A stretch of 64,000 nt of DNA, from NCBI RefSeq assembly GCF_005864045.1, contig NZ_VBSP01000002.1, positions 62,001-126,000 on the forward strand, written 5' to 3'. This stretch comes from Ruoffia tabacinasalis. GTDB lineage: Bacteria > Bacillota > Bacilli > Lactobacillales > Aerococcaceae. The notes beneath the pieces are model-generated. The model saw only the letters and a program-made list of their open reading frames with translations, ran no database searches and was not told the origin of the DNA. The position numbers and the translations under genes are program-made. This document shows, piece by piece, positions 7,371 through 23,628 of this stretch (positions are counted from its first letter, which is position 1; the number at the start of each line of letters is the position of its first letter).

Positions 7371-9086
7371 TTAGAACAGACTGATGTTCTCAACATATAA
7401 CTCTTTCTGTTTCTCGTTCCCAATAAAATCATCCACACGTTTATTTGCTAAATCAATGTACCAAGTCTTATCTAACCAATCTGGTATGGATAGCTCTGTC
7501 ACATCTTCATTAACGAGTGTGACTGCATCGGGTGTGTGTGGTATCTTGCTTGTCTTACCATTTTTTAGATAGGATAAGTTTAAGCCATTAGTGTTAGAAA
7601 ATACTCTAAATGTTTTTTCATTGCGAACTTCACGACCATATTTAGCGCCATCAAACTTATCTGTGATACGTACCACTCGCTGGAAGTCTATAAGGTTTTC
7701 AGCGTGATTTATTGTGTCTTCTACGCTTATTCCATGGATAAAATAATTCTTAACGGCTTGATTTACAATAGGCAAGTCATTGTCTATGATTGATAAATCT
7801 TTAGTGTACTGACCAACTGCTGTGACTCTATCACCTATCAATATGTAATTGTTCACATCTTTTTGATGGACACGATCATAATATTCAAAACTCATCGTTA
7901 ATCCTGTTCGCTCTTCCCACTCAAAAACAATATCATCCAGTTGGTCAAAATCTTTACGTTTAATCTTAACCAAGATACCATCTGTGTTGGATTGAATAAG
8001 TTCGATGATTGGTTCTAACTTATCGATTAAATCAACAATAAAACATTGGCCAAAGATACATGTAAGTAACCTGTTGCGTGGGTCATATAACTTATTAAAC
8101 CTATCTCCGCTCGCGCCGTACACGATGTTACAAAACTCTTTATAAGGCAGTCTTGCAGCATGAGGTCCTAACTCTTTCAATCTTAAGGATTCATCTAAAC
8201 TCCATTCATATTTTGATTTAAACCTTGCACCACGACTTAATAAGTCATAGTTTAAAAGTAACGTTGGATAAAGTTGATTAACATCTAACAAAATAATATA
8301 TTCATCCGACTTCGCTTGTGTGTGATAATTCTTCAGCGCACCATGTATGCCACCTTTACCAAGTTTGTTCTCTACACCAGCTATATCGATGGTTAAATCT
8401 GCATCTAACACACGTCTGCGGTTAAAGAATGTTAACACCTCGTCATACTTACCTAACTCAGCGTCGAACGGCGCCCAAATGTCGTATTCATCATCTTTAT
8501 TAATTTTACGTGCCTTTAATATCTCTGCACCCAATTGCGCCATAGACTTACTGATATGTTTGAGATGTAACTTAAATTGGTTAACTAGCGCCAACTTCGC
8601 ATTGAATGTGTCTAACGTTTCCATGAATACCAAAAAGATTTGTTGGACGTCATATCGCAAATGTTTTGCTACGTCTAAAAGTTCTTGATCAGTCAGTTTG
8701 CGTTTCAAATTAAAAGGGACAGACGACTCGCGTATGTCATGTCCCATGAAACCAACTATTGTTTTGAGTGAGTGATTATTAATCTTTGTATCGTAATTAT
8801 TAATACTGAAATCTTTCAACTTGTCACTAAACTCCCACCCTTGTTTTTGTTGTCGGATAATAAAATCTGACATGTCATACGGGTTATAACCACCTAAGAT
8901 ACTAGCTAAAATATACTTGTCATAACTGGTACTGTTATAACCGACCCAGACGGTGCGTTTAAACTCGTTGTAAAATTTAGTGAGTGCTTTAACATTATTA
9001 ATAATTAATGATTCTTGTTTTGTTTCTGTGTCTAGCAGGCTGACTAACCAGTCCTGCTTAAACACTGAAAACTTGTAAATTATCAT
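7371..9086 (-). CDS. Phage family B DNA polymerase
   Basis: This 571-residue polymerase is short for family B. Motif A is DVNQLYP (D268), motif B is the KEFCNIVYG segment (about 316-324) and motif C is NTDG (367-370, in place of DTDS). An exonuclease domain is recognisable by Exo II GYNSTSYDKYIL (N51, D56) and an Exo III-like LRYDVQQI (D146). At the place where relatives usually show DxE (YDFEVF-like) it reads YKFSVF, so proofreading may be lost. It presumably elongates from primers made by the neighbouring primase. Confidence 0.85.
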   Translation of the reverse strand: MIIYKFSVFKQDWLVSLLDTETKQESLIINNVKALTKFYNEFKRTVWVGYNSTSYDKYILASILGGYNPYDMSDFIIRQQKQGWEFSDKLKDFSINNYDTKINNHSLKTIVGFMGHDIRESSVPFNLKRKLTDQELLDVAKHLRYDVQQIFLVFMETLDTFNAKLALVNQFKLHLKHISKSMAQLGAEILKARKINKDDEYDIWAPFDAELGKYDEVLTFFNRRRVLDADLTIDIAGVENKLGKGGIHGALKNYHTQAKSDEYIILLDVNQLYPTLLLNYDLLSRGARFKSKYEWSLDESLRLKELGPHAARLPYKEFCNIVYGASGDRFNKLYDPRNRLLTCIFGQCFIVDLIDKLEPIIELIQSNTDGILVKIKRKDFDQLDDIVFEWEERTGLTMSFEYYDRVHQKDVNNYILIGDRVTAVGQYTKDLSIIDNDLPIVNQAVKNYFIHGISVEDTINHAENLIDFQRVVRITDKFDGAKYGREVRNEKTFRVFSNTNGLNLSYLKNGKTSKIPHTPDAVTLVNEDVTELSIPDWLDKTWYIDLANKRVDDFIGNEKQKELYVENISLF

Positions 9087-9092
9087 TGAGTG

Positions 9093-9362
9093 TCACTCCT
9101 TGTAAACTACTGTGTAATAAGTCTTGCTAACTGGATTGTAATACTCCATGTGTATTTCTGGCACCGCATCATCGCCTACTTTATGTTGGCTGACTAACAT
9201 TGGCTGGTCGCCTTGGATAAGTTGGTTATAGATTGGATCGTGTGTTGGTTCGCTGGGTTGGGATAAGTGATTTGAAATTAAATATATCGCATAGGCAATT
9301 TGGATAATTATAGATAGACCAATCAATATTTGCCCAATGGTCAATAGTTTGTTTTTATCCAT
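9093..9362 (-). CDS. Small phage membrane-anchored protein
   Basis: The 89-residue product has an N-terminal membrane segment (about residues 8-30, LLTIGQILIGLSIIIQIAYAIYL) and an external-looking soluble tail. I chose the ATG at 9362 (MDKNK) over an upstream TTG. The chosen ATG overlaps the last codons of a tiny ORF (9355-9423), suggesting coupling. No family recognised. Confidence 0.6.
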   Translation of the reverse strand: MDKNKLLTIGQILIGLSIIIQIAYAIYLISNHLSQPSEPTHDPIYNQLIQGDQPMLVSQHKVGDDAVPEIHMEYYNPVSKTYYTVVYKE

Positions 9363-19289: not shown

Positions 19290-19596
19290 ATTTTCCCCTC
19301 CTTAATTTAAAATTATGTAAGATAAATCGTTAGAAATATCGTACTTTCATTTGACAACAAGTATAAAATATCGTACTATATAGACGTAGTTAAATAAGCC
19401 TTCTCAAAGACTGATTCATCATTATTTTTCCGTTCCCCAACGATTAAATGATTAATTTTCAGTTGTTTTTAAGGACGTTTTAACTAACAATTTCCCTTAC
19501 GAATATAATTGTATGATATTTTATACTTTTAAGCAAGTGTTTTGTATAATATTTTATACTTTTATTTTAAGTAAGGTCAGAAAGGTTGATTTATCA
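19290..19596. promoter_or_regulatory. Divergent lysis-lysogeny operator region
   Basis: The 14-bp sequence AAGTATAAAATATC occurs at 19359-19372, with inverted copies GATATTTTATACTT at 19515-19528 and AATATTTTATACTT at 19548-19561. AAATATCGTACT is also repeated directly at 19334-19345 and 19366-19377. A sigma-A-like rightward promoter overlaps the first operator: TTGACA (19351-19356), 17 bp, TACTAT (19374-19379). The sites flank both start regions, as expected for CI/Cro control. The remaining sequence shows no gene. Confidence 0.72.
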
Positions 19597-19971
19597 ATGT
19601 TGTTTGACCGTATAAAAGAAGTCGCAGATGAGCGTGGAATATCAATTTCAGAGCTTTCAGTGAAAATGGGATGGTCAGAAAAAGCTATTTATGCATGGAA
19701 GACGAGTAGCCCTTCACTGGATAAAGTTAAGAAGATAGCTGATTATTTTGGTATCTCTATTGACCGTTTGGCGGACAGAGATGAATATTGGAGAGACTAT
19801 GATAAGAATTTAGGCGAAGAAAAATTAGCTTCCATTAGAAATAAAACTGATGAAGCTAGTGAAGCGATGGAGTTATTCGCTGCTCATATTGATGATGATT
19901 TAACGCCTGAAGAAATGGAAGATGTGATTCAGTATTTAGAATTTATTAGAAGTAAGCACAAAAATAAGTAG
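19597..19971 (+). CDS. CI-like phage repressor
   Basis: The 124-residue product starting at the ATG at 19597 has an Xre-type domain (LFDRIKEVADERGISISELSVKMGWSEKAIYAWKTS, in parts) and a short acidic C-terminus (DDDLTPEEMEDVIQYLEFIRSK) in place of a peptidase domain. An upstream ATG at 19513 would lie inside an operator, so I rejected it. With the adjacent ImmA-like gene it forms a cI-immA unit, in which the metalloprotease cuts the repressor on induction. Confidence 0.85.
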   Translation: MLFDRIKEVADERGISISELSVKMGWSEKAIYAWKTSSPSLDKVKKIADYFGISIDRLADRDEYWRDYDKNLGEEKLASIRNKTDEASEAMELFAAHIDDDLTPEEMEDVIQYLEFIRSKHKNK

Positions 19972-19979
19972 GTGTTGGT

Positions 19980-20378
19980 ATGAATTTACTCGAAAAATTA
20001 ATGTCAGAATACGACAATGAACTCACGTTTGAGTTTGTGGATATGCCAAAAGGTATTCCGGGTTATATTAAAGGTAGACACGTATCAATTAATGCTAATA
20101 TGCCTTTCGAGAAGTCACTGGCTATCCTTGCGGAAGAATTAGGGCATTATGAAACGAGCGTTGGTGACATCACAAATTATAAAGATAGCAATAATATGAA
20201 ACAAGAAATTAAAGCACGTCGTTGGGGTTATCGTAAGTTGATACCTTACTCAGAGTTAAAAAGATTAATTGATGAGCGCGGCAGTTTAGATCGCCATGAA
20301 ATCGCTGAACACTTTTCGGTACCAGATAAATATGTTGTTGAAGCCATTGAAATGTATCGAGTTACTGGTCATTTATAA
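19980..20378 (+). CDS. ImmA/IrrE-family metallopeptidase
   Basis: This 132-residue protein has a zinc-protease-like helix that reads LAEELGHYET, the EExGH form common in phage ImmA proteins in place of HExxH, followed by an EIKARRWGYRKLIP segment with the third ligand region. It starts 8 bp after the repressor stop. In ICEBs1-type systems ImmA cleaves the repressor ImmR to induce the element; that role is inferred here. Confidence 0.85.
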   Translation: MNLLEKLMSEYDNELTFEFVDMPKGIPGYIKGRHVSINANMPFEKSLAILAEELGHYETSVGDITNYKDSNNMKQEIKARRWGYRKLIPYSELKRLIDERGSLDRHEIAEHFSVPDKYVVEAIEMYRVTGHL

Positions 20379-20426: not shown

Positions 20427-20726
20427 ATGGATATTAAAAAAGAACGAATAAGAATCAACTGTTCGCATTGCGAAAACAAAATCGTGTTAACTTATCATAC
20501 GGAACGTTGCCCCAAGTGTGGTCAACCCTTTGACCCTGAACAAGTGAAGTCGTTATTTCATAATTATGAATCACAAGTGATGAATAGTAAGTTTTACCAA
20601 GCTGGAGAAAAGATGGGCAAAGCAGGAAATGCTATGGCAGAAGTAGGTAATTCGATGCAAAGTTGTGGTTGTACATTAACATTAATTACAATATTTATAA
20701 TCATTGTACTTGCACTATTACTATAA
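20427..20726 (+). CDS. Zinc-ribbon membrane protein of the lysogeny cassette
   Basis: This 99-residue protein has CSHC and CPKCG pairs (about residues 12-15 and 29-32) forming a zinc ribbon, a polar linker and a C-terminal membrane helix (LTLITIFIIIVLALLL). It has a GGGGAGG ribosome site. It lies between immA and the cargo gene. Such proteins occur in lysogeny cassettes, sometimes with superinfection roles, but nothing here shows the function. Confidence 0.65.
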   Translation: MDIKKERIRINCSHCENKIVLTYHTERCPKCGQPFDPEQVKSLFHNYESQVMNSKFYQAGEKMGKAGNAMAEVGNSMQSCGCTLTLITIFIIIVLALLL

Positions 20727-20737
20727 TCAAAAACACC

Positions 20738-20770
20738 CCACTCCCTCTAACTTGGCGGTCGGAGGAGTGG
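20738..20770. terminator. Hairpin left of the cargo gene, terminator-like on both strands
   Basis: CCACTCC (20738-20744) pairs with GGAGTGG (20764-20770). On the left it is flanked by AAAAACACC, which reads as GGTGTTTTT on the leftward strand, so it works best as a terminator for leftward transcripts; rightward it has only a weak T stretch (AGTTTTT) 8 nt on. A similar element occurs at 22036-22065. Confidence 0.55.
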
Positions 20771-20799
20771 ATTAGAAGTTTTTAAAGAAAGAGGTAATT

Positions 20800-21798
20800 A
20801 TGTCTTATAATATAAATAGCAATAGCAGTTTTGAACAATTAGAAGAATATATAAAATTAAAGAATCCAAACATCTTAAGGGAAACAGGAAAATTTATTCG
20901 TGAAGATATAGAGTTTGATTCATTTTCGACATTAAAAAATGATTTATTGGAATATGCTAAAGCTAACTATCTATATGAACTTAAGCTATTAGAACCCGAT
21001 GAATCAACTTCTGATATTTTCTTTTGGTATAGAAAACCGGTAAAAATATGGTGTATAGGTATTAATGATAGCTATATAGGAGAAAGAAGTATATTAAATT
21101 TTGCCACAAAAAATGAAGAAGATGCAATCGAGATGATAGATGCTGTTCAGATTACCACTTCAACAAAATTTTACAAAATGAATATATTACAAAAAATAAG
21201 TTTTTTAATAGAAAAAAATATCATTCCAGATATATCTAACAATATAATATATTCCTCTCTAAATCGAATTCCTTATATGGGTTCCTGGGCTGAAGTATGG
21301 GTAGAAAAAGAAGCGAATAATATTGATAGTTTAATCAAAAGCCCTGCAGAAATAATTGATTTCAATAAATCAATTATTAGAGCAAAACGATATAACTTTG
21401 AAGAAATGTTAGCTGTAATTAATAATGACCAATTCACTATCGAATTTGATGAATGTCTATTTGCGTATAATAATCAAAAATGGTTTGTATGTGCTGCAGG
21501 TTTAGGTGGGATTCTAGAACATCTTATCTATTTAACTCTGGAGAAAAATAATTTAATTGATAGTAATTTTCCAGATGATGCAACCGCTAAAATTTACATT
21601 GAACATTTAAGTCGTAAACCAATAAAAATGAAAAAGAGAGAAAAAACGCATTTGAGAAGTCTTTTCCTAATAAGGAATTCGGTGTCACATTTTAATCAAG
21701 GGTTTACTTCTAAAGATCAATGCCAAACGCTAATGAATGGCATCAGAGACTTCTTTAATAACTACTACATTAAAGATTTTAATTTAGATGATAATTGA
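20800..21798 (+). CDS. Prophage cargo protein with C-terminal HEPN-like motif
   Basis: This 332-residue protein is very AT-rich and lies in the lysogenic-conversion slot between immA and int. The C-terminal ~110 residues are helical: CAAGLGGILEHLIYLTL (about 231-247) then SLFLIRNSVSHFNQG, containing R292-N-S-V-S-H297, the Rx4H signature of HEPN ribonucleases and of DUF4145-like proteins. HEPN proteins in this slot often stop other phages by cutting RNA. The first ~200 residues match nothing I recognise. Its own ribosome site is AAAGAGG. The defence role is inferred; it could also be a non-catalytic HEPN. Confidence 0.6.
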   Translation: MSYNINSNSSFEQLEEYIKLKNPNILRETGKFIREDIEFDSFSTLKNDLLEYAKANYLYELKLLEPDESTSDIFFWYRKPVKIWCIGINDSYIGERSILNFATKNEEDAIEMIDAVQITTSTKFYKMNILQKISFLIEKNIIPDISNNIIYSSLNRIPYMGSWAEVWVEKEANNIDSLIKSPAEIIDFNKSIIRAKRYNFEEMLAVINNDQFTIEFDECLFAYNNQKWFVCAAGLGGILEHLIYLTLEKNNLIDSNFPDDATAKIYIEHLSRKPIKMKKREKTHLRSLFLIRNSVSHFNQGFTSKDQCQTLMNGIRDFFNNYYIKDFNLDDN

Positions 21799-21980
21799 TG
21801 TATTTGGTACGTTTTTTTTGCCCCATATGATTCATAAGTAATTGTTCCATCTTTGTATTCAAATGGTATGCCTGATTCATCATATTCGACATTATTAAGT
21901 TGTGGGTGTTGGTAGTAGAACTCTTCAACAAGTTCATTGAATATTTCTAAATCGGATTGTGTAATTTCCAATTTAATCAC
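21765..21980 (-). CDS. Small acidic protein convergent with the cargo gene
   Basis: This 71-residue frame overlaps the end of the HEPN-like gene by 34 bp on the opposite strand. The start is uncertain: GTG at 21980, or TTG at 21971, which is better spaced from GAGGTG. The product (DLEIFNELVEEFYYQHPQLNN, then YKDGTITYESYGAKKTY) looks like a real acidic alpha/beta protein. It could be a partner of the HEPN-like protein, or an unrelated small gene. Confidence 0.5.
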   Translation of the reverse strand: MIKLEITQSDLEIFNELVEEFYYQHPQLNNVEYDESGIPFEYKDGTITYESYGAKKTYQIHQLSSKLKSLM

Positions 21981-22035: not shown

Positions 22036-22065
22036 CACACTCTCCCCGACCAAAGTTTGAGTGTG
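22036..22065 (-). terminator. Hairpin right of the cargo cassette
   Basis: CACACTC (22036-22042) pairs with GAGTGTG (22059-22065), and AAAAATACC to its left reads GGTATTTTT in leftward transcripts. It resembles the hairpin at 20738-20770 in layout and in the AAAAA-ACCCCAC-CTC flank. It may keep leftward read-through from entering the lysogeny genes. Confidence 0.55.
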
Positions 22066-22143
22066 AGATATGAGACACAAATAACCTATAGTAGGCGTAT
22101 TTGCTATACCCTATTATAGCATAATTAATAGGAGGAATTCAGC

Positions 22144-23265
22144 ATGTGGATAGAAGAAGTAAATGGAAAATTTAAGTACGTGGAAAGATATACAGACCCT
22201 GTGACAGGCAAAGACAAAAAGGTATCAATCACTTTAAATGATAAGAAGAAAAAGACACAACAAGAAGCGATGTTATTTTTAAACGAGAAGATAAATAAAA
22301 GAGTAGAGCCGAATGTAAACTCTCAAGCAATTAGTTTTAGAGAAGTAGCTGATGATTGGTTAAAATATTTTGAGCCAACTGTAAAGAAATCTACTTATGT
22401 CAGAACAATATCAAATGTAAAAGCATTGAATGAACGCGTTGGAGATATACTATTTGATAAACTAACTGCTTCGCATTTTAACTCTTTTTTTCTTGAGAAC
22501 TTACAGTCCAAGCGATATAAATATAATTCGATGCGCCAAACCAGATCAGTTGTAAGACGAATTATACATTACGCTTTGAAATATAAAGGCATAGATATGA
22601 CGTCAATCATTCCACTTCTGGAAGTACCTAAAATCAATGTCACCATTAAAGATGATTTAAAATATTTAGAAAAAGAAGAGCTGCAAAAAGTTTTAAATTA
22701 TCTTGAAGTAAATGAGTTATATCAACATAAACGCATGGTCATTTTGCAAGTCAGTACTGGTATGCGTTTTGGAGAACTGACTGTCTTAGATTATGAAACA
22801 GACATCAACTTTGAAAATAAATCAATTACCGTTAACAAGACATATGATTCCGACAACCGAATAGTCACAACTACCAAGACAGGCAAAGATCGAACGATTT
22901 ATTTTAATGAAACGATTGAGAAGGTATTGAAAGAACAAATACATACAACAAAATTGCAGACCGTTGCGAATGGTCATGACAGAAGTAATAAATTACTATT
23001 TAAGACGGTTCATGGCACTCCGTTTCGAACGCAAAGTTTGAACTTGGTATTATCTCGCATTGAAATACCGAACAAAAAAGTGACCACGCATATATTTAGA
23101 CATACATTCATTACTATGGCTGTCCAAAATAATATAAGCAAAGATTTAATCGCCCAGCAAGTTGGCCACTCAGACACAAATATGATTGATAAAGTCTATG
23201 CCCACTTTACAAAAGAAATGGAAGAACAACAAAAAGAGGCAATGCTAGATTTTAAAATCATCTAA
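22144..23265 (+). CDS. Phage tyrosine-type integrase
   Basis: This 373-residue integrase has an N-terminal arm-binding region (WIEEVNGKFKYVERYTDP), a SAM-like core-binding domain (about 60-160) and a catalytic domain with R in STGMRFGEL, K in TTKTGKDRT, HxxR in THIFRHTF, H in VGHSDTNM and the nucleophile Y in DKVYAHFT. All active-site residues are present, so it is probably functional. A strong AGGAGG precedes the ATG. It lies next to rpmA, at the prophage right end. Confidence 0.96.
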   Translation: MWIEEVNGKFKYVERYTDPVTGKDKKVSITLNDKKKKTQQEAMLFLNEKINKRVEPNVNSQAISFREVADDWLKYFEPTVKKSTYVRTISNVKALNERVGDILFDKLTASHFNSFFLENLQSKRYKYNSMRQTRSVVRRIIHYALKYKGIDMTSIIPLLEVPKINVTIKDDLKYLEKEELQKVLNYLEVNELYQHKRMVILQVSTGMRFGELTVLDYETDINFENKSITVNKTYDSDNRIVTTTKTGKDRTIYFNETIEKVLKEQIHTTKLQTVANGHDRSNKLLFKTVHGTPFRTQSLNLVLSRIEIPNKKVTTHIFRHTFITMAVQNNISKDLIAQQVGHSDTNMIDKVYAHFTKEMEEQQKEAMLDFKII

Positions 23266-23353
23266 CTTTGCCCCTTTGATGCCCCTTAAGGTATTATTCA
23301 CTTACAAACAACCCTTAGGAACCGCTATATAATAAAGTTCTTAACCTTGAACT
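23266..23353. other. Prophage right junction, candidate attachment core
   Basis: The 75 bp between int and rpmA end in AGTTC-TTAACCTT-GAACT (23336-23353): two 5-bp inverted arms around an 8-nt spacer that overlaps the rpmA stop codon. That is the layout of a tyrosine-integrase core site, and suggests insertion at the 3' end of rpmA with the coding end restored. No normal rpmA terminator is visible. The left junction is outside the window. Confidence 0.45.
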
Positions 23354-23628
23354 GCAGGGTATACAGAAACTTGTTTCTTGCTGTGTCCCTTGCGCTCAAA
23401 TTTAACAACACCGTCAACTAGTGCGAATAATGTATCATCCCCACCACGACCTACGTTGTTACCTGGGTGGATTTTAGTTCCACGTTGGCGGAAAATGATT
23501 GATCCACCTGTAACAGTTTGTCCGTCAGATGCTTTCGCACCTAAACGTTTAGCGATTGAGTCACGACCGTTTTGTGTCGAACCTCCACCTTTTTTCGTAG
23601 CGAACATTTGTAAATTAAGTTTTAACAT
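23341..23628 (-). CDS. rpmA: 50S ribosomal protein L27
   Basis: This 95-residue protein starts with the Firmicutes extension LKLNLQMFA, which Prp removes to expose the mature TKKGGGST N-terminus near the peptidyl-transferase centre. The core ([32 protein letters not shown]) is canonical. The last residues (SVYPAVQG) and stop codon lie at the presumed prophage junction, so the C-terminus may be partly phage-derived. Confidence 0.97.

Follow-up and report, generated by a model that had tools for sequence, protein, structure and literature searches.

A divergent Tha-family HEPN protein with a probable antisense Ith-type partner gene in a Lactobacillales prophage

The closest described relatives of the locus presented here belong to Tha, a tail-activated HEPN anti-phage system comprising Tha-1 of phage 80alpha and Tha-2 of phage phiNM2, in which the small protein Ith that accompanies Tha-1 acts as an anti-autoimmunity inhibitor when its own prophage is induced (Rostol et al. 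2024, PMC11087260). The 80alpha sequences that we fetched, an ORF of 301 aa bearing RNSIMH and a xis gene of 201 nt, agree with that account. In the literature searched, the name Tha is used in that paper only and the system is described only for Staphylococcus aureus phages. Here we consider a gene at 20800-21798 of the window (i.e., the whole 64,000-nucleotide stretch of DNA analysed, to which coordinates refer unless a locus is named), and we contend, with a probability of roughly 95%, that it encodes a Tha-family HEPN protein accompanied by a partner gene that is Ith-type by position. The original prediction had put this gene forward as part of an undescribed system; it belongs instead to the published Tha/Ith system (PMC11087260), of which it is a divergent representative.

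The ORF lies on the forward strand, begins with an ATG preceded by GAAAGAGG, encodes 332 aa and is present in a single copy in its own genome. We regard it as a real gene, since its product has relatives at 55-60% identity in viral contigs and in Enterococcus aquimarinus, and those from other prophages are 26-45% identical. An AlphaFold2 model (18 sequences in the alignment; mean pLDDT 82) predicts an alpha/beta N-terminal region of about residues 1-176, which is a putative sensor, then a linker of low confidence (177-197) and, at about 205-330, the helical bundle that forms the C-terminal HEPN domain and carries R292-NSVS-H297. This Rx4H motif had been recognised in the original prediction, and the alignment bears it out, R292, N293 and H297 being invariant across 13 divergent relatives. 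The likeness to DUF4145 proposed with it found no backing, since Pfam returned nothing for the protein at E values up to 10, and none of 18 relatives matched DUF4145.

The structures closest to the model are HEPN proteins, led by 2hsb (Z 11.4, rmsd 3.4, 117 aligned) and followed by 2q00 (Z 10.8), 1ufb (Z 10.5) and the Csm6 structure 6tug (Z 9.7), with MntA-HepT toxins at Z 8.1-8.5 (HepT 7bxo/5yep 8.4-8.5), AbiV 9bj7 at 7.5 and Gifsy-1 HepS 9oij at 7.4, although values below about 13 can be commonplace among helical bundles. The predicted HEPN fold is nevertheless persuasive, given that the top matches are consistently HEPN and coincide with the motif and with homology. This search of the whole model probed mostly the HEPN half and barely covered the N-terminal half.

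Membership of the Tha family is best seen through profiles. The original prediction had proposed sensitive profile and structure searches as a check, and alongside the structural result the 332-aa protein matches phrog_2039 at E 6e-27. Tha-2 itself scores 4e-162 against phrog_2039 and is thus a core member of it. BLASTP aligns the protein with Tha-2 directly (E 1e-8, 21% over residues 57-317) and finds no similarity to Tha-1, to which homology is weak. In hhalign comparisons the clade of the window protein gave 87% against Tha-2 and 100% against the protein of Lactobacillus phage JNU_P1, while the family as a whole gave 94% against Tha-1, in the HEPN part; the direct alignment with Tha-2 likewise spans the HEPN part only and leaves the N-terminal half uncovered. 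JNU_P1 is the only phage record matched directly (26.5% over residues 47-324) and its protein (9.8e-38, full length) forms a bridge between the window protein and the Tha-2 family; it matches Staphylococcus phage ORFs, such as that of phiNM2, that sit between the repressor and an annotated 'excisionase'. In the tree, the window protein clusters with those of locus L001 and Enterococcus aquimarinus (100/99), in a clade distinct from that of Tha-2; the placement of Tha-1, whose branch is very long, is unsure.

Scans of the protein and 18 relatives against Pfam, NCBIfam and PADLOC returned no defence or HEPN family above cut-off, and the matches below it, to Cas13a (0.014), HEPN_Swt1 (0.0072, one relative) and CARF-HEPN (0.003, one relative), are mere hints of HEPN. 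PDB sequence searches and tblastn of plasmids were both without a match. A scan of genome contigs with the single protein found no relative, while an alignment-based scan found that of Enterococcus aquimarinus. Among 76 genomes of the bacterial family, 2 carry relatives, as do 8 of 395 from the order, and a family-model search of the class placed them in 8 of 398 genomes.

The gene lies in the lysogeny module of a temperate phage, between cI and int. A CI-like repressor (19513-19971) is the first gene of the operon that would express tha, and is followed by an ImmA/IrrE-like metallopeptidase (19980-20378; PF06114, 4.7e-08), a 99-aa protein with a zinc ribbon and a transmembrane helix (20427-20726; phrog_6586) and tha itself; a tyrosine integrase (22144-23265) stands downstream of the antisense gene described below, as at staphylococcal tha loci. 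Repressor, ImmA, tha and integrase all occupy one strand, which the neighbouring zinc-ribbon cargo gene shares. That 99-aa protein is another candidate superinfection factor, and its slot upstream of tha is taken by lipoprotein-like genes in L001, L002, L006 and L038. Around the divergent repressor promoter region, 19340-19565, there are repeated palindromic sites of the GTATAATATTTTATAC type (e.g., 19359-19376, 19509-19531 and 19542-19564), which are probable CI/Cro operators.

The prophage, about 41 kb long, sits in the 3' end of rpmA, the gene for ribosomal protein L27, whose coding end it restores. It extends between two copies of a perfect 25-bp repeat, CTTGAACTGCAGGGTATACAGAAAC, the probable att core, one at 23346-23370 and the other at contig C2:44381 (L119:1382-1406). 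Terminase and portal genes lie in the window, and the tape measure, Dit, tail and lysis genes in L119, with the tail genes at contig C2:47000-57600; with these structural, tail and lysis genes present, the prophage is probably functional, judging by gene content, and would need shielding from its own defence. The suggestion that tha occupies a slot for prophage defence cargo is supported by its fold, by homology to Tha-2, for which anti-phage activity has been shown experimentally, and by the conserved tha/ith architecture.

The partner gene lies on the reverse strand at 21765-21980, overlapping the 3' end of tha by 34 nt, and is an ORF of 71 aa when read from a GTG. An alternative TTG at 21971, behind GAGAGGTGAT, gives 68 aa and is the likelier start, because the GTG falls within a good Shine-Dalgarno sequence, GAGAGGTGATTAAATTG. 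Our sample of 117 loci contained 48 distinct relatives; clustering the full-length ones at 90% identity left 27 representatives. In 22 of these 27 divergent genes the tha stop is crossed by an antisense ORF of 45 aa or more, as is the stop of 14 of 139 other genes at the same loci (Fisher p 1e-13, which is optimistic since the loci are related). Two or more of the 22, those in L108 and L113, are unlike Ith in appearance. Within the window's clade, substitution ratios indicate purifying selection on the antisense gene: dN/dS is about 0.19 against the L002 protein, which is 52% identical, and about 0.09 for the pair L006/L024; identity to the L006 protein is about 22%.

Resemblance of the small protein to the known inhibitors is slight. 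Against Ith-1 or Ith-2, hhalign gave 9-16%, with shuffled controls reaching 6%, and the common ground is an N-terminal (F/L)SxxEIxxI pattern only. Among the PDB chains compared, none matched a model of the small protein (pLDDT 90.8) at more than Z 3.3. A tblastn search of phages with the 71-aa ORF was empty owing to its divergence; among the fetched loci it was found in L001-L003. In Lactobacillus phage JNU_P1 (L005, MN830252.1), an unannotated antisense ORF at 8842-9162 overlaps the end of the tha-like gene and is probably a missed ith.

A promoter of its own is predicted for the antisense gene. An extended -10 sequence, TGCTATAAT, lies on the reverse strand at 22113-22121, about 140 nt before ith, and its match to the consensus makes it a candidate. 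The element emerged from comparison across loci: the extended -10 TGNTATAAT occurs on the antisense strand downstream of tha at 14 of the 27 loci, including those of 80alpha and phiNM2, and at none of the 27 on the sense strand, against a mean of 0.84 in shuffles. A sigma-70 scan of the region found promoters no commoner than in shuffled sequence. Between this -10 and ith sits a stem-loop (22036-22067, in the space between ith and int), whose core, CTTTGGTCGGGGAG, is near-identical in the same place, upstream of ith, in L023-L025. A second stem-loop, at 20736-20771, is related to it in sequence and opposite in orientation, so that the pair flanks the tha-ith segment; they may be terminators, or the borders of exchangeable cargo.

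In proposing how the cassette would work, we draw on Tha-1 and Tha-2, from which the trigger, RNase activity, dimerisation and inhibition of the window protein are inferred, and by this homology we consider it probable that the whole Tha/Ith mechanism applies. During lysogeny the repressor operon would supply the HEPN protein, which would stay latent. The N-terminal half of this protein would detect something that an infecting phage makes late; as with Tha-1 and Tha-2, a tail or baseplate protein is the most likely candidate. The dimeric HEPN RNase, acting through R292 and H297, would then degrade RNA and halt the cell before new phages are made, as in abortive infection. When the resident prophage is induced, the repressor operon would fall silent and the antisense promoter would drive production of the small Ith-like protein, which would block the HEPN protein and spare the prophage from its own defence. 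The trigger of the window protein may differ from those of Tha-1 and Tha-2, because homologues of the known triggers, gp61 and gp62 of 80alpha, were not found in its own genome, a result confined to the resident genome.

Those missing trigger homologues, together with a sensor half diverged from those of Tha-1 and Tha-2, are also what would be expected if the HEPN RNase had another job, for instance in regulating prophage or host RNA, or if what it responds to in a phage were something else than a tail protein. We consider this unlikely, however, since the place in the lysogeny module and the conserved antisense inhibitor gene imply that the protein has to be silenced during lytic growth, as would suit a trigger of phage origin.

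The antisense gene lends itself to a further reading, that it encodes the excisionase (Xis) of the neighbouring integrase and has no connection with the HEPN protein. It stands beside int, the prophage requires some excision factor, and staphylococcal counterparts are annotated as excisionases. Yet the 80alpha 'xis' is dispensable for excision (PMC11087260), and staphylococcal phages combine near-identical ith genes with unrelated integrases, phiNM2 having a serine recombinase and the mosaic phi11 another type. Co-variation with int is not seen here either: between the window and L001, tha is 59% and ith 52% identical, while the integrases share only 24%, and the small protein therefore tracks the HEPN protein and not the integrase. 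We regard the excisionase reading as improbable, and that of an Ith-type partner as the better account of the gene.

The comparison of loci also included some in which an intact tha-like gene has no recognisable ith, namely L108:3921-4895, L022:3087-4097, L038:4010-4897 and L113:1057-2025. These are natural losses of the inhibitor, at least in L108, the Enterococcus aquimarinus locus, where a decayed prophage retains the intact HEPN gene followed by an integrase fragment and, beyond it, chromosomal genes. The HEPN gene of L022 is followed by a gene of lysis type, and in L038 ith has been lost between the tha stop and the terminator. L108, L022 and L038 thus indicate that the HEPN protein can exist alone, which fits an inhibitor that is needed only when its own phage is induced and argues against a classical toxin-antitoxin pair. 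Of the proposal that the 71-residue ORF is a partner or an antidote, the partner is supported by the conserved tha/ith architecture, and the toxin-antitoxin antidote is unlikely. Although a HEPN fold close to the HepT toxins and a small acidic partner adjoining the HEPN gene do recall HEPN-MNT, a constitutively toxic HEPN RNase with the 71-aa protein as its antitoxin is very improbable, since tha genes with an intact RNSVSH motif and no ith, in L108 and L038, imply a protein that is not lethal by itself there, and the antisense, convergent layout is unlike a toxin-antitoxin operon. HEPN-MNT membership was set aside on gene content as well: the neighbours of the HEPN gene are the zinc-ribbon protein, the antisense ORF and int, with no MNT nucleotidyltransferase beside it.

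By this analysis the Tha/Ith system is an ancient and wide-ranging cassette of Bacilli prophages whose antisense layout is well conserved, and many genes annotated as 'excisionase' or 'hypothetical' are probably inhibitors of a defence RNase. What Tha senses, and how it is blocked by Ith, can be asked across the set of 27 divergent tha loci, the majority of which have a partner gene. What is new here is a divergent clade in Lactobacillales prophages, whose sensor half and inhibitor barely resemble the staphylococcal ones. We give about even odds to a broader proposition, that this clade is a third, widespread Tha lineage beyond Staphylococcus, having a trigger of its own (some other tail or late protein) and an inhibitor either diverged past recognition or replaced, the HEPN protein and its antisense inhibitor co-diversifying as lock and key across Bacilli prophages.

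Among other known HEPN proteins, AbiV and Gifsy-1 HepS share the fold (VIA-align Z 7.4-7.5), but no sequence match was found between them and the window protein, and they are shorter and lack its N-terminal half; we know of no antisense inhibitor for either. The JNU_P1 protein (QHJ74705.1) is homologous over residues 47-324, stands in the order cI - ImmA - tha - int and has the antisense ORF across the end of its gene, but the identity is 26.5% and it is a hypothetical protein that was never characterised. Tha-1/Ith-1 of 80alpha agree with the window in motif (RNSIMH against RNSVSH), gene order, antisense overlap and a weak profile similarity of the HEPN domain, whereas Tha-1 shows no BLASTP similarity, falls in PHROG 13276 and has an N-terminal half unrelated by sequence. 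The nearest match is Tha-2/Ith-2 of phiNM2, with which the window has in common phrog_2039, a C-terminal HEPN domain with RNxxxH, a length of about 300-330 aa, the slot between repressor and integrase, an antisense small gene overlapping the tha stop by some 20-35 nt and an antisense promoter of the extended -10 type. It departs from phiNM2 in an identity of about 20% to Tha-2 and a poorly alignable N-terminal half, in an inhibitor not recognisably homologous in sequence to Ith-2, in the ImmA and zinc-ribbon genes between cI and tha, and in a tyrosine rather than a serine integrase. The window system is, on this comparison, a new divergent member in Lactobacillales and not a categorically new one.
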